From Chloroflexota bacterium (lineage in GTDB: Bacteria; Chloroflexota; Anaerolineae; Anaerolineales; UBA4823), in contig JAJUJL010000027.1 of the NCBI GenBank assembly GCA_029265355.1, positions 1 to 51,075 of the forward strand: DNA of 51,075 nucleotides, in the 5' to 3' direction. The translations under genes were made by a program, and so were the position numbers. The notes beneath the pieces are model-generated. The model was given only the letters and a program-made list of their open reading frames with translations, made no database searches and was not told the origin of the DNA. Positions 18,221-40,789 of the stretch are shown one piece after another (the first letter of the stretch is position 1; each line of letters opens with the position of its first letter).

Positions 18221-19612
18221 TTACGGCGTGGCGCTGATGGCCGCATCGACCTGCAGCAAGCCAGCGCCTACCGGATCGCAGGCCTCGCCGCCGCAGTCGG
18301 TGTCCCAGGCGATAACTGCCCAGTGATCGAAATCGAAAACGGTGCGGCTGTCAATGGCTGGCATGGGCAGGGCGGTGGATTTGAGCAATTGCTCGACCTG
18401 CGCCTGCGTCAAAGTTGGGTTCTTCTCCAGCAGCAGCGCGGCGGCAGCCGCCACGTGCGGCGTCGCCATGGACGTGCCGCCGACGTAGTAGAAGTTGCCA
18501 GGGTTCACACCGTAGACATCGCCCATCCCCTTCGACCACCACGGCAGGTGACTGTAGCCTGGCACGCCGGGGTATGGCCCGCGCACCCAGGATCCAGGGG
18601 CCAGCACGTCCAGCTCTTCGCCCAGGCTGGCCCAGGCGCGGCTGGAGAAATCGGTGACATAAACATCCTCCGCCACGGTCGGGTCGGCGACCTCGCCCGA
18701 GCCCGGCATCATCGGATCATCGAAGTATTGCAGCCACCACATGCGGTAGCGCGGCTCCTGGGTATCCGGGAAGAGCCACTCGCCGGTCCAACCGACAGCG
18801 CCGGCCGAGATGACCGGCGGGTAAGCGCCAGGATAATCCATGCCAGCTTCACCGTCGTTGCTGGCAGCCGCCACCACGATCACGCCGTTGGCGATTGCCC
18901 GGTCAAGCGCCTCTTGCTCGATCGGCGACAGCTCCGAGCCGCCCAGGCTCATGTTGATCACCATTGGGCGGTAACCCTGGATGGCCAGGTCGGTGACGTA
19001 GTTGATGCCAGCCGCCACCATCTGATCGGTGCCGAACACGACTTTCTCCGATGGCAGCGGGCCAGGATCGTCGCAGTGCGGCAAGGCTGGGATGGTGTAA
19101 TCGGTCAGCACCTTGACCGGGATGACGGTCACTTCGGGGGCGATGCCGCGCACCATGATCGGCGGCAGCGGGTAACCGTTGAGTGCATCGTAATTGCTGT
19201 AGTAGGAATAACCCAGGATGGTGCTGGCGACATGCGTGCCGTGCGTGGAACCCGTCGAGCCGACCCAGGTGGTCTGGTGCAGGTTATCCATGTACACTTC
19301 GAGGCCGCAGGGGTCGTCATTCTTCTGCTTGAAGATCACCTGCTGTTCGAAGCCGGTGCCCAGTTCGGTGGCGACGCGCGGCTCGGGGAAATAATCGCGC
19401 CAGTAAGGCACCAGGCCAGTGTCCAGCACCGCGACATACACGCCAGCGCCGGTTTGAGTCACCTGCTCGATGTTGATCATATCCGAGTCCCAGGTGGCGT
19501 AGCCGTTGACTGTGCTGGTTTCCTTGCGAAACGGGTTGCCAGCCAGGGCTATCTGGACCGTGATCGCCAGTATGACGAGAACTGCCAGGATGGTGAATGC
19601 GGATCGTTTCAT
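18221..19612 (-). CDS. Secreted subtilisin-like serine protease (family S8)
   Basis: A 463-residue exported protease. The signal peptide covers about residues 1-24 (hydrophobic core FTILAVLVILAITVQ, cut after ALA). The catalytic triad is complete: Asp64 in VAVLDTGL, His124 in STHGTHVAS and Ser381 in GGTSMATPHVA. The usual oxyanion Asn region reads VVAAASNDGEAG. Only about 40 residues separate the signal peptide from the Asp, so no I9-type propeptide is visible. Insertions around residues 95-120 and 150-195 carry Cys residues that could form disulfides. The ATG at 19612 has the ribosome binding site TAGGAGG; an earlier frame start is not supported. Its promoter is at 19778-19806, giving a leader of about 160 nt. 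Confidence 0.92.
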   Translation of the reverse strand: MKRSAFTILAVLVILAITVQIALAGNPFRKETSTVNGYATWDSDMINIEQVTQTGAGVYVAVLDTGLVPYWRDYFPEPRVATELGTGFEQQVIFKQKNDDPCGLEVYMDNLHQTTWVGSTGSTHGTHVASTILGYSYYSNYDALNGYPLPPIMVRGIAPEVTVIPVKVLTDYTIPALPHCDDPGPLPSEKVVFGTDQMVAAGINYVTDLAIQGYRPMVINMSLGGSELSPIEQEALDRAIANGVIVVAAASNDGEAGMDYPGAYPPVISAGAVGWTGEWLFPDTQEPRYRMWWLQYFDDPMMPGSGEVADPTVAEDVYVTDFSSRAWASLGEELDVLAPGSWVRGPYPGVPGYSHLPWWSKGMGDVYGVNPGNFYYVGGTSMATPHVAAAAALLLEKNPTLTQAQVEQLLKSTALPMPAIDSRTVFDFDHWAVIAWDTDCGGEACDPVGAGLLQVDAAISATP

Positions 19613-19777
19613 CGTGGAGAACCTCCTACAACAAGAGAAATAACCGGGTCGCGCCAATCCCTTAGCAGCGAACTGGATGGGCGCTTTCCAGGCGGCGCGC
19701 GCCGCTCATGGCGTTGGCTTTGGCGAATCCTTTCGCTCTCCCCCCGGAAATTGCAAGCAAGATATTCTGCTGCAATT

Positions 19778-21327: not shown

Positions 21328-21407
21328 TGATAGAATATATCGGAAATACCGCGAACTACCCGAAGCAACTTTTTACCCCAAGCCACATTTATCAGATTGG
21401 AGGACAA

Positions 21408-22187
21408 ATGAATATCCGAAACCTTGCAACCATGCTGCGGTTCATCGCCGTGCTGGCAGTCGCTGCGATACTGCTGATTGGTGGCGTCACGTTGGCGCAA
21501 AACAACCTGCCCGCCACCGAGGGCGGGGCGCGCGCCGAAGCGCTCGGTTCCCAGGGTCAACCGGATGGCGCGCTGCAGGAAGCCATTGCGCCAGAAGGCA
21601 GCCAGGCTGCCACCGAGACGGGCATCAAACCAGAGGTGGAAAGCTCGGCGGTGTACGTGGATGGCTTTGCCCCAGACGACAACCCGCCGGTCACGGCCAA
21701 CTCGCCGAGCGCGCCCAGCGCCGTATTTTCATACTACACCATCGTCGGTCCCGAGATGCAACCGCGCACCACAGCCAATAACCAGGCATACGGCAGCTCA
21801 GGCTGCTCGTACATGACCTCCGGCACCGGAACCGGGCTGCTTTCTGGCTCCGGCCTGCATATCCCCGATGACTCGGTGATCAAATACATCCGGCTGTACT
21901 ACTACGACATCAACGCCTCTGCTGGTGTGGATGCCTACCTGACACGCTACGCGCCGGGAACCAGCGTATCCGACCTGGTCTTCACCGGTTCGACCAATGC
22001 TTTTGCCGGCGGAGCTGGCTTCGTGGTCAGCCCAGAGATCACCGAAACAGTCAACACCGCCGCCTACACCTACATGCTCTATGGCTGGCCGGATTCAGCC
22101 AGCAACACATTGCAGTACTGTGGTATACGCGTGGCGTATTACGCGCCAACCATCAGCAGCGTGTACCTGCCCATGCTGCGCCGCTGA
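21408..22187 (+). CDS. Secreted protein of unknown function with LP-x-x-R tail
   Basis: A 259-residue exported protein that I do not recognise. The signal peptide is clear (hydrophobic core FIAVLAVAAILLIGG, cut near TLAQ, about residue 29). Residues about 30-105 are low in structure and rich in Ala, Gly, Pro and Glu. From residue ~110 to the end is a beta-rich domain with Cys pairs in GSSGCSYM and LQYCGIRV. It ends in VYLPMLRR. The same kind of tail (LRLPIILR) ends the 1080-residue repeat protein in this window, and tails of this form are frequent on Chloroflexota secreted proteins, so it may be a surface-sorting signal. The ATG has the ribosome binding site GGAGG. Confidence 0.75.
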   Translation: MNIRNLATMLRFIAVLAVAAILLIGGVTLAQNNLPATEGGARAEALGSQGQPDGALQEAIAPEGSQAATETGIKPEVESSAVYVDGFAPDDNPPVTANSPSAPSAVFSYYTIVGPEMQPRTTANNQAYGSSGCSYMTSGTGTGLLSGSGLHIPDDSVIKYIRLYYYDINASAGVDAYLTRYAPGTSVSDLVFTGSTNAFAGGAGFVVSPEITETVNTAAYTYMLYGWPDSASNTLQYCGIRVAYYAPTISSVYLPMLRR

Positions 22188-37546: not shown

Positions 37547-40500
37547 TTACCTCAAAATGATGGGCAGGCGGAGCTTGTGTTGCAGCGGCGGCTGGCGATA
37601 CAGGCTGACCATGTTCTCCGCCGGGCGCCCAATGATGTATTGGCCGAGCAGGCTGTCGTGGTGAAAGGTCATGCTGGGGCCGCCGCCAGCCACCGCGCCC
37701 AACAGGCTGTTTTGGGCGGTGATCTCGCCGGTGGTGGCGCTCTCCAGGCCATCCATCCAGGTGACCGCCCCGGCATCCAAAATGTCACCGTTATCCCAAT
37801 GCGGTGAGAGCACCACGTAATCGCCCCGCTCCGAGCCGCCGACGCTGTTGTGCGCGCCGAGGTTGTCGTTGGCGCTGCTGCCCACCAGGCTGTTGGCGCT
37901 CGAAACCACGCCGGAAACGCCGCCCAGGCTGCTGCCCCAGGTGACGGCGCCAGCCTCCACCGCTGCGCCGTTGTCCCACAGCGGGCTCAGCACCAGGTAA
38001 CTGCCCAACCCCAGGCTCACAATCTCCTGCCCGACCGCATCGCCGTCGCTGCCGCCCACCAGGCTGTTGGCGGCGCTGATGGCGCCCACCCGCCCGGTTT
38101 GCCCATTCACCCAGGTGACCGCGCCGGCATCCGGAATGCTGCCGTTGTCCCAATCCGGGCTCAGGACGAGAAAACTGCCGTCGATCACGTTGTTCAGGCG
38201 CTCGATGGGGTAGAAACCGACCAGGTCATTGCTGTGAGTGCCCACCAGGCTATTGAGCGGGGAGACAAAGCCGGTAATGCCTGTGGCGCCGTTCGCCCAG
38301 GTCACGGCGCCGGCGTCCACCGCCAGCGCCTGATTCGACTGTGCGCTGGCGGCGCCAGCGAAACTGGCGGCGCCAGCGAAACTGGCGGCGGTGTTATCCC
38401 ATTCTGGACTGCGCACCACGTAATTGCCGTTGTACAGCTCGCTGATCCCCGCCGAGCCGATGCGATCGCCGGCGCTGGCGCCCACCAGGCTGTTGGTGGG
38501 AGAGACCAGGCCGCGCACGCCCGCCGCGCCGTCGCCCCAGGTGACAGCGCCAACGTCGACCAGCGCGCCGTTGTCCCAATCCGGGCTGATCACCAGGTAA
38601 TTGCCGTTTTCCAGCGCCCACAGCTCAGTCCCCACCCGATCCCCGGCGGAGACCCCCACCAGGCTGTTGGCGCCGGAGATCTCCCCGGCAATGCCAGCGG
38701 CGCTGCTGCCCCAAACGACCGCCCCGGCATCCACAATGGCGCCATTGTCCCAGTCGGGGGCGCGGATCACGAAATTGCCCTGCGCCAATTCCATCACCGG
38801 AGCATACCCACCCAGGTCGCCCGAGGCGCTGCCGACCAGGCTGTTAGCCGATGAAAGCACACCCGAAAGTCCCGCCGCCCCACTCGACCAGGTGATCGCC
38901 CCGGCGTCGCTGGCCATGGGGCTGTCCCATTCCGGGCTGTGCACCAGGTAGCTGCCGTTGGAGAGCAAGAATAGCCCACCCGATCCAAGCCGGTCGCCGT
39001 TTTTACCGCCTACCAGGCTGTTGGCGATGGAAATTTCGCCCGAGGCGCTGCTCGCAGTGCTCAGCCAGGTGATCGCGCCGACGTCCACCAGCCCGCCATT
39101 GTCCCAGTTTGGAGTGAGCACCACCCATCCGGCTGAGCCGACTTCTGCCGCGTCGCCCAGGCCAACATTGTCTCCCGCCGAGCTGCCCACCAGGCTGTTG
39201 GCAGCCGAGACTTCGCCGACCAGGCCGGTCGCCCCGTTCACATAGGTGATCGCGCCGGCGTCCACCAGCGCGCCACGGTCCCAGGACGGGCTCTTGACGG
39301 CGTAATGGTCGCTTGGGAACACGCTGATACGCCCCGATCCGACCCGGTCATTTGCGGCGCTGCCCACCAGGCTGTTGGCGTCGCTGACCGGGCCGCTGAG
39401 TCCCTGGCTGCCATCCACCCAGGTGACCGCCCCGGCATCGGCGATCGCGCCGCGATCCCAAAGGTAACTGGCGACCACTGCATTGCCGTTCGGCAACGGG
39501 TAAATGGTGTTGGGGAAGCCAACCATGTCATTGGGCGAGCTACCGACCAGGCTGTTGGCAGGCGAGATCACCCCGGAGACGCCGCCCGCGGCGCTGCCCC
39601 AGGTCACAGCGCCAGCATCCACAGCCAGCGCATAACCCGACTGTGGGCTGGCGGCGCCAGCGTCCACGGCGCTGGCATTGTCCCACAGCGGGCTGCTGAC
39701 CAGGTAGTTGCCGTTGGACAGGATCGTCACCCGGCCCTGGTCGCCGACCCGGTCGTTGGTCGAGCCGCCCACCAGGCTGTTGGCGGGGCTGACCACCCCA
39801 GAGACGCCGCCCGCGGCGCTGCCCCAGGTCACAGCGCCAGCATCCACTGCCAGCGCATAACCCGACTGTGGGCTGGCGGCGTTGGCGTCCACGGCTGCGC
39901 CGTTATCCCAGAATGGGCTGAGCACCAGGTAACTGCCATTGGGCAGTTGCAACGGGTCCAGCACACCAACCTGGTCGTAAGCGGTGGCGCCCACCAGGCT
40001 GTTGGCGGCGCTGATCAGGCCAGAGACGCCGCCCGCGGCGCTGCCCCAGGTGGCGGCGCCGGCATCTACCTGGTCGCCATTGTCCCATTCCGGGCTGAGC
40101 ACCAGGTAGTCGCCATTTTTCAGCACCACCAGGCTGCCCTCGGCGCCGATCCGGTCGCCGTTCGAGCCGCCCACCAGGCTGTTGGCGGCGCTGATCTCGC
40201 CGGTGACGCCGCTCGCGCCATTGCCCCAGGTGACAGCGCCGGCGTCAATGGCCGCGCCGTTATCCCAATCCGGGGACAGCGCCAGGTAGTTGCCATTGGG
40301 CAGCCCCACCACCGCCTGGGCGGCAGAGCCGAGGTGGTCATCGTTGGCGCTGCCCACCAGGCTGTTGGCAGGCGAGACGACGCCAGCAACGCCACTGAGA
40401 GCGCTGCCCCAGGTGATGGCGCCCGCGTCCACGGCTGAGCCGTTGTCCCAAGAGGGACTAGAGAGCACAAAATTGCCATTGGCCAGCACGGTCACGCCGC

Positions 40501-40789
40501 CTGAGCCAACCTGGTCGCCGGCAGTGCTGCCGGTGAGCGCGCTGATCATGGCGCCCGTCTTGCCATCGTACAGGTAAACCGCCCCCACATCCGCTGCACC
40601 AGGAGCGTCGTAGCCAGGATCGCAGATCACCAGGTTGCCATTGGGCAGCACGGTAATCGCTGCGCCAAAGTCATCGCTGCCGGTTGGCCCAGGAATATCC
40701 TGGGTCAACGCTGCAGCAACCAGGGTCGCCAGGCAGGCCACGACCGACAGCACAGCGCTGGCCGCACACAGCCGCTTGCGGATACTCAT
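37547..40789 (-). CDS. Secreted protein of about 15 tandem 60-70-residue repeats
   Basis: A 1080-residue exported protein. The signal peptide spans about residues 1-27 (core SAVLSVVACLATLVAAAL). Nearly all the rest is repeats built on 'NSLVG.S.GDRVG', 'L.NGNYLV.SP.WDNGA', 'VDAGAVTWG.G..G'. The NSLVG word occurs fourteen times plus a variant NSLLG. These look like the DUF5650-type repeats known in cyanobacterial and Chloroflexota surface proteins, as I recall them. Three repeats carry an extra insert of the type AASPQSGYALA. Two neighbouring units (near 39590-39660 and 39815-39885) are almost identical in DNA, a sign of recent duplication. The end LRLPIILR resembles that of the 259-residue secreted protein. 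ATG at 40789 with GGGAGG upstream. Adhesion or surface-layer role is inferred. Confidence 0.85.
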   Translation of the reverse strand: MSIRKRLCAASAVLSVVACLATLVAAALTQDIPGPTGSDDFGAAITVLPNGNLVICDPGYDAPGAADVGAVYLYDGKTGAMISALTGSTAGDQVGSGGVTVLANGNFVLSSPSWDNGSAVDAGAITWGSALSGVAGVVSPANSLVGSANDDHLGSAAQAVVGLPNGNYLALSPDWDNGAAIDAGAVTWGNGASGVTGEISAANSLVGGSNGDRIGAEGSLVVLKNGDYLVLSPEWDNGDQVDAGAATWGSAAGGVSGLISAANSLVGATAYDQVGVLDPLQLPNGSYLVLSPFWDNGAAVDANAASPQSGYALAVDAGAVTWGSAAGGVSGVVSPANSLVGGSTNDRVGDQGRVTILSNGNYLVSSPLWDNASAVDAGAASPQSGYALAVDAGAVTWGSAAGGVSGVISPANSLVGSSPNDMVGFPNTIYPLPNGNAVVASYLWDRGAIADAGAVTWVDGSQGLSGPVSDANSLVGSAANDRVGSGRISVFPSDHYAVKSPSWDRGALVDAGAITYVNGATGLVGEVSAANSLVGSSAGDNVGLGDAAEVGSAGWVVLTPNWDNGGLVDVGAITWLSTASSASGEISIANSLVGGKNGDRLGSGGLFLLSNGSYLVHSPEWDSPMASDAGAITWSSGAAGLSGVLSSANSLVGSASGDLGGYAPVMELAQGNFVIRAPDWDNGAIVDAGAVVWGSSAAGIAGEISGANSLVGVSAGDRVGTELWALENGNYLVISPDWDNGALVDVGAVTWGDGAAGVRGLVSPTNSLVGASAGDRIGSAGISELYNGNYVVRSPEWDNTAASFAGAASFAGAASAQSNQALAVDAGAVTWANGATGITGFVSPLNSLVGTHSNDLVGFYPIERLNNVIDGSFLVLSPDWDNGSIPDAGAVTWVNGQTGRVGAISAANSLVGGSDGDAVGQEIVSLGLGSYLVLSPLWDNGAAVEAGAVTWGSSLGGVSGVVSSANSLVGSSANDNLGAHNSVGGSERGDYVVLSPHWDNGDILDAGAVTWMDGLESATTGEITAQNSLLGAVAGGGPSMTFHHDSLLGQYIIGRPAENMVSLYRQPPLQHKLRLPIILR

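Follow-up and report, generated by a model that had tools for sequence, protein, structure and literature searches.

The locus and its two tailed proteins

The window, the whole stretch of DNA analysed here, is one contig (C2, 51,075 bases) out of the 64 that make up a 5.05 Mb genome. The phylum is Chloroflexota, since G012, which is placed in the phylum of the home genome, has an 800-base stretch identical to part of a Candidatus Oscillochloris fontis record. On its forward strand, positions 21408-22187 encode a 259-residue exported protein that has no Pfam match. A Shine-Dalgarno-like GGAGG at 21399-21403 (+) backs the ATG start at 21408, and approximately the first 31 residues (21408-21500, +) form a predicted signal peptide, assigned by a crude home-made rule and coinciding with a confident helix over residues 3-32 in a single-sequence AlphaFold2 model (pLDDT 38.6, usable for the signal helix only). 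The protein ends in the tail VYLPMLRR, which occupies positions 22161-22187 (+) together with its TGA stop codon. On the reverse strand, positions 37547-40789 encode a second exported protein, of 1080 residues and with 18 DUF5650 repeats by Pfam, whose tail, LRLPIILR, is found with a TAA stop at 37547-37573 (-).

The first-pass annotation had drawn attention to these two endings on what it took to be unlike secreted proteins. Reading of the DNA confirms both tails, and the carriers are indeed dissimilar, with no Pfam family in common (none in the first protein, 18 DUF5650 stretches in the second); both have a signal-peptide-like N-terminus by the crude rule. The window also encodes a subtilase-like protein (18221-19657, -; identity by reading of the sequence) with a signal-peptide-like start that ends in ISATP without a tail, and the tag is thus absent from some exported proteins.

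A catalogued motif

The tag is real and is already catalogued, so that the earlier view of it as a signal without a name no longer holds. NCBIfam 20.0 contains two models, NF050076 (11 columns, short name sort_motif_YLP) and NF053834 (10 columns, short name ultrashort_CTERM), both entitled 'YLP-box putative sorting motif-containing protein'. In position and residues these models resemble the window tails, and in seven of ten tail fragments scanned their alignment covers the final 8-10 residues, but many tails are missed by them. The C-terminal 95 residues of the 259-residue protein are matched by NF053834 (12.4 bits, cut-off 10, E=0.13) and not by NF050076, and an NCBIfam scan of the whole protein gives no match to either YLP model. 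The second window tail, LRLPIILR, is matched by neither. Among 43 tailed proteins, NF050076 matches nine and NF053834 six at E<=1, and one of six home-genome tail fragments is matched by the YLP models. The model titles name no partner and term the function 'putative', and within the open-access literature no paper was recognised as describing the YLP box. A sorting role is likely, as a prediction, and the new and testable part of the present analysis is a candidate link, by correlation, to a PorU-like peptidase of family C25.

Distribution across the class and phylum

The class was scanned with a DNA pattern encoding Y-L-P-h-h-x-R (h being L, I, V, M or F) followed by TRR, with the reversed pattern as the control. 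Matches are found in 73 of 100 class genomes. Across the 70 of these that were also scored for other protein families there are 246 matches against 62 for the control (Wilcoxon p=4e-5), and the highest genomes give 48 versus 0 (G140), 19 versus 0 (G212), 19 versus 3 (G201) and 14 versus 0 (G130). A narrower form of the pattern, applied to 121 genomes of the phylum, gives matches in 13, most of them from two families that lie outside the class, with counts of 10 in G012, 10 in G061, 6 in G024 and 8 in G070 against controls of 0, 0, 0 and 1, respectively.

An exact YLPLV-h-R-stop pattern was also searched over a collection of 84,980 species and returned 29 stretches, 27 of which are Chloroflexota by title, several sharing an organism (five, for example, are from Candidatus Viridilinea halotolerans). 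The phylum placement was looked up for Aquidulcis, Thermoflexales, Oscillochloris and Brevefilum, and the other names we take to be Chloroflexota. In 24 of the 27 stretches the pattern ends a frame of at least 60 codons or one truncated by the edge of the stretch; in L244, L245 and L259 it ends short frames. The two remaining stretches, from Marinobacter and Terriglobia assemblies, represent a P450-like end (our own reading) and a 25-codon frame, and a Roseiflexus record is matched in a 40-codon frame only. The scans agree with the remark in the first-pass annotation that similar ends occur on many Chloroflexota proteins.

Because TRR admits TGG as well as stop codons, the class pattern carries its own internal control. 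Of the 150 matches listed, a true stop closes 144 and TGG six. In the 144 true-stop matches the last residue is always arginine, though the pattern permits serine, and the leucine is retained in 143, though phenylalanine is permitted; these matches comprise 143 distinct DNA strings encoding 71 peptides, so that selection acts at the protein level. Recurrence at the ends of genes is what might be expected of a DNA or RNA element, such as a repeat, a terminator or an uptake sequence, that codes for LP incidentally. The freedom of synonymous change and the preponderance of true stops reject such an element, and we regard its probability as negligible.

Enrichment on exported proteins

To complement the scans there are direct counts of open reading frames (ORFs). 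Both the ORFs and their signal peptides were assigned with home-made means (a picker and a rule, respectively, the latter in place of SignalP), such that single assignments may err. The home-genome sample covers 851 kb of the 5.05 Mb and contains 761 ORFs, of which 131 have a signal peptide, 542 have none and 88 have a signal peptide together with membrane segments. The excess on exported proteins that the first-pass annotation had proposed looking for is present: LP within the last ten residues together with a terminal R or K is found in 9/131 signal-peptide ORFs against 6/542 others (p=5e-4), and in 7/129 against 6/542 (p=0.005) after removal of the two discovery proteins. The strict LPxxx[RK] ending, again with the discovery proteins removed, gives 2/129 against 1/542 (p=0.10).

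Blind samples were taken from three further genomes, G061, G118 and G110. Each yields too few tails to be decisive by itself, the lowest p value (0.035) coming from a single motif out of several tried in G110, and in G061 the test for LP with an R/K end shows no excess (1/32 versus 4/136). When the home genome and the three blind genomes are pooled, without the discovery proteins, the same test gives 9/224 against 12/947 (p=0.01), and hP-h-h-x-[RK] gives 5/224 signal-peptide ORFs against 2/947 others (p=0.004). Both of these signal-less matches are incomplete, one (L128) being the cut end of a signal-peptide protein (L231) and the other (L125) reaching the edge of its stretch. Control motifs, which were reversed, substituted or acid-ended, yield 0-1 matches each. 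On their own the ORF samples provide moderate evidence for enrichment of the tail, and it is the pattern scans that carry the case.

Twelve tailed ORF ends can be named in the home genome: two in the window, two at L012 and one at each of L014, L031, L038, L039, L044, L047, L052 and L219, the last on a C25 protein. One of the two tails at L012, VYLPALPNQ, is without a basic residue, and the loci fetched for L031, L038, L039, L044 and L047 do not extend to the N-terminus. At four further home-genome loci, L029 (= L049), L033, L037 and L045, typical tails are found just past an in-frame stop, as if through a frameshift or an assembly error.

Anatomy of the tail and its carriers

The consensus of the tail is about [V/I]-[Y/F]-L-P-h-h-x-[R/K], located at the C-terminus or a few residues from it. 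Homologues of the 259-residue protein occur in 17 of 298 class genomes, its own included (16 others). Among 19 other, diverged homologous ORFs, 18 retain an [LIM]P box past a variable linker, and 16 have R or K four residues after the proline. The single box-less homologue (L264) has its stop within the match, and a neighbouring paralogue (L278) retains the box. The first-pass annotation had placed the motif at the exact terminus; this is true of both window proteins, but 12 of the 16 homologues with the basic residue carry 1-5 further residues beyond it, and the box is therefore not necessarily terminal. In G140, the genome with the most pattern matches, 38 tails from 20 contigs (picked for their matches rather than blind, and biased towards R) have YL ahead of the proline in 36 cases, R or K as the fourth residue after it in 30 and 8 cases, and no extra residues in 32. 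VP and IP variants (VDVPLLQR, FIPLIGR and FVPVIVR) are encoded in G118, a single-contig genome from the family of G012. A stretch of G140 (L187:4573-13745) harbors five tandem genes with the box, four of which are similar over their last ~15 residues.

The carriers are diverse, the 43 tailed proteins matching 56 Pfam families, which include C25, subtilase, M4, M6, CAP, amidase, GDSL lipase, PKD and beta-helix. Ten of the 43 also match a choice-of-anchor Q domain of NCBIfam at E<=1, a name that presumably denotes domains found ahead of various sorting signals. A linker rich in P, T and S was considered as a general feature of the tail and rejected (0.27 versus 0.23), and an exclusion of lipoboxes (odds ratio 0.41, p=0.047, by a crude rule that gives several false lipoboxes) was likewise not accepted as strong support.

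Some carriers have Ig-like or beta-helix domains, and this raises the question of whether the tail lacks a role of its own, being either the terminal strand of widespread C-terminal domains or a coincidental ending. The loss of significance for the strict form in the home sample once the two discovery proteins are removed would agree with such an account. Against it, the tail follows many unlike folds as well as low-complexity linkers, and the box is conserved across the variable linker in diverged homologues. Furthermore, many C25 proteins have a domain that terminates at a GDPALRL-like stretch; past that point the tail adds ~15-25 residues in some of them, while others lack it. We consider a last strand or chance ending very improbable.

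A PorU-like C25 peptidase as candidate partner

The occurrence of the C25 (PF01364), subtilase and sortase (PF04203) families was compared over 70 class genomes, where tail-rich means a net count of 4 or more and tail-zero is defined by the strict pattern, several tail-zero genomes bearing variant tails on C25 proteins. The C25 scoring covers 70 of 100 class and 90 of 106 non-class genomes, the remainder being mostly of lower completeness. C25 is present in 15/15 tail-rich and 9/20 tail-zero genomes (p=4e-4), subtilase in 15/15 and 20/20, and sortase in 15/15 and 17/20. Rank correlations with the tail counts are 0.51 for C25, 0.48 for subtilase and 0.23 for sortase; with the other family held constant, the partial correlations are 0.29 for C25 and 0.26 for subtilase. 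The 49 C25-positive class genomes contain 234 tails against 46 for the control, whereas the 21 C25-negative class genomes show no enrichment (12 against 16), a contrast that persists when the genomes are split by their number of subtilases.

Outside the class, C25 is found in 8/9 tail genomes and 7/81 others (p=7e-7; 90 of 106 genomes scored, the genomes of all these comparisons not being independent of one another), and the association holds when counted by family (35 families, p=0.002). G009, with TGG instead of a stop at its sole match, is not counted here as a tail genome, and G084 has a weak C25 match (E=3e-6). Counter-cases are G200, with 11 C25 proteins and no strict tails; G209, with nine and a single strict tail; and G015, with two tails but, in a genome 84% complete, no C25. 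The PorU-like C25 peptidase may be the co-occurring protease that the first-pass annotation suggested seeking, albeit by correlation only.

PorU is a C25 peptidase. Of 40 aligned C25 domains, 39 have retained the catalytic His and Cys residues, and for a tailed C25 protein of G118 the sole PDB match at E<=1e-5 is PorU itself (6za2, E=1.6e-12). Both G118 and G070 have one C25 match each. The Chloroflexota proteins are PorU-like without reaching the PorU model NF033707, which scores ~200 bits against two home-genome C25 proteins with a cut-off of 420. They are also frequently tailed: complete C25 proteins carry the tail in 16/27 cases in tail-bearing genomes (10/20 counting the first-fetched set only) and in 3/23 in genomes with few tails or none, and more variant ends occur in each group. 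Since the peptidases are so often tailed cargo, enzyme and passenger are not separated here, and C25 may be a passenger. Some C25 genes are grouped with PqqD-, HprK- and radical-SAM-like genes, a setting that hints at a different function.

Sortase, present in every tail-rich genome, invites the view that it handles the box as an LPXTG-like signal cut down to LP, and its gene adjoins a C25 gene in G070, G110, G158 and G212 (L212, L213, L214 and L215). However, the box has no T-G after the LP and no membrane segment, and the enzyme occurs in most tail-zero genomes too. The presence of sortase fails to separate tail-rich from tail-zero genomes, and it is rejected as the discriminating partner. 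In addition, a C25 neighbour in G118 bears an LPXTG-type signal and one in G158 ends in LPETGRR, so the sortases there have other likely substrates. We consider a sortase-based reading of the box improbable.

A non-covalent form of display has also to be weighed, in which the terminal strand would slot into a surface receptor or lattice protein, in a PDZ-like manner or by strand addition, with no enzyme involved and C25 as one cargo family among many. This is consistent with the lack of a transmembrane segment after the box, a helix-like hydrophobic C-terminus being found in just 2/52 tailed exported ORFs, one of them a doubtful tail. The greasy residues and the basic end would fit a beta strand, extra residues after the box are tolerated, and C25 proteins are frequent among the tailed cargo. 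Such display leaves unexplained why, by genomes counted, tails exceed the control only where C25 occurs, and we hold it to be rather doubtful.

Relation to known sorting systems

In LPXTG signals, as in the YLP box, an LP core and a basic residue lie near the end of exported proteins, but the box has neither the TG nor a transmembrane helix. With the window proteins ending in LPMLRR and LPIILR, and with the rarity of helix-like C-termini noted above, an LPXTG signal is rejected. The PEP-CTERM, GlyGly-CTERM and MYXO-CTERM systems are similarly genome-wide C-terminal tags on unlike exported proteins, in which, according to PMC11980579, the motif is followed by a hydrophobic helix and a basic end. 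No helix follows the YLP box, and a tripartite signal of this type is also rejected.

The type IX system of the Bacteroidota is similar in combining an N-terminal signal peptide with a C-terminal signal. PMC11285876 describes this signal as a folded Ig-like domain whose last residues matter yet may be extended, a tolerance that resembles the extra residues found past the YLP box. In contrast, the box is about ten residues in length and not a folded Ig-like domain. When 22 tailed proteins or C-terminal fragments, some of them twice, were scanned with NCBIfam, no T9SS sorting-domain model was found; the scans of the 43 carriers bear on this as far as the first 25 families listed. A search for SprA matched 0/26 genomes, and no control genome was matched either.

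A proposed role for the YLP box

The reading that we prefer, and to which we give an even chance, is that the YLP box is a short linear C-terminal sorting peptide of the Chloroflexota, acting in surface sorting after export, possibly via a PorU-like peptidase. The carriers, to judge from their N-terminal signal peptides, would be exported by Sec. Once outside the membrane, the box, itself devoid of a membrane-spanning segment, would present an extended peptide for recognition in trans, and this recognition would direct the carrier to retention on, or attachment to, the cell surface. The most likely reader of the box would be a PorU-like C25 peptidase, given its conserved catalytic His and Cys and the restriction of the tail excess to C25-containing genomes among those counted; this assignment, which draws on co-occurrence, is tentative.

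A more specific version envisages a minimal counterpart of type IX sorting, in which an ultrashort Arg/Lys-ended peptide replaces the folded domain and a PorU-like C25 processes or attaches the carriers, partly in lineages with atypical outer layers; we consider it unlikely. Concerning such outer layers, PMC7332563 describes the envelopes of Chloroflexus aggregans and Ca. Viridilinea mediisalina, but not that of Roseiflexus castenholzii, as diderm-like.

Overall, the interpretation offered in the first-pass annotation is partly supported, and a role of the tag in surface anchoring or secretion is putative. With so little understood about the Chloroflexota envelope and the placing of proteins on it, a label for exported proteins would make some of the surface proteome predictable on the basis of sequence only, and, if the PorU-like link is true, C25-based sorting would extend beyond the Bacteroidota.

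Neighbourhoods of C25 and sortase genes

At L219:1447-10739 of the home genome (C36:46446-55738), an HprK-like kinase, the tailed C25 protein, a PqqD-like chaperone, a signal-peptide-bearing membrane protein, and another C25 protein, this one untailed, are encoded. The mixtures that include a radical SAM gene, found in L212 and L213, have the appearance of a system for peptide modification. Elsewhere in the home genome (C29), L218:3658-6522 encodes a 954-residue protein in which DUF11-type repeats are fused to a sortase domain.
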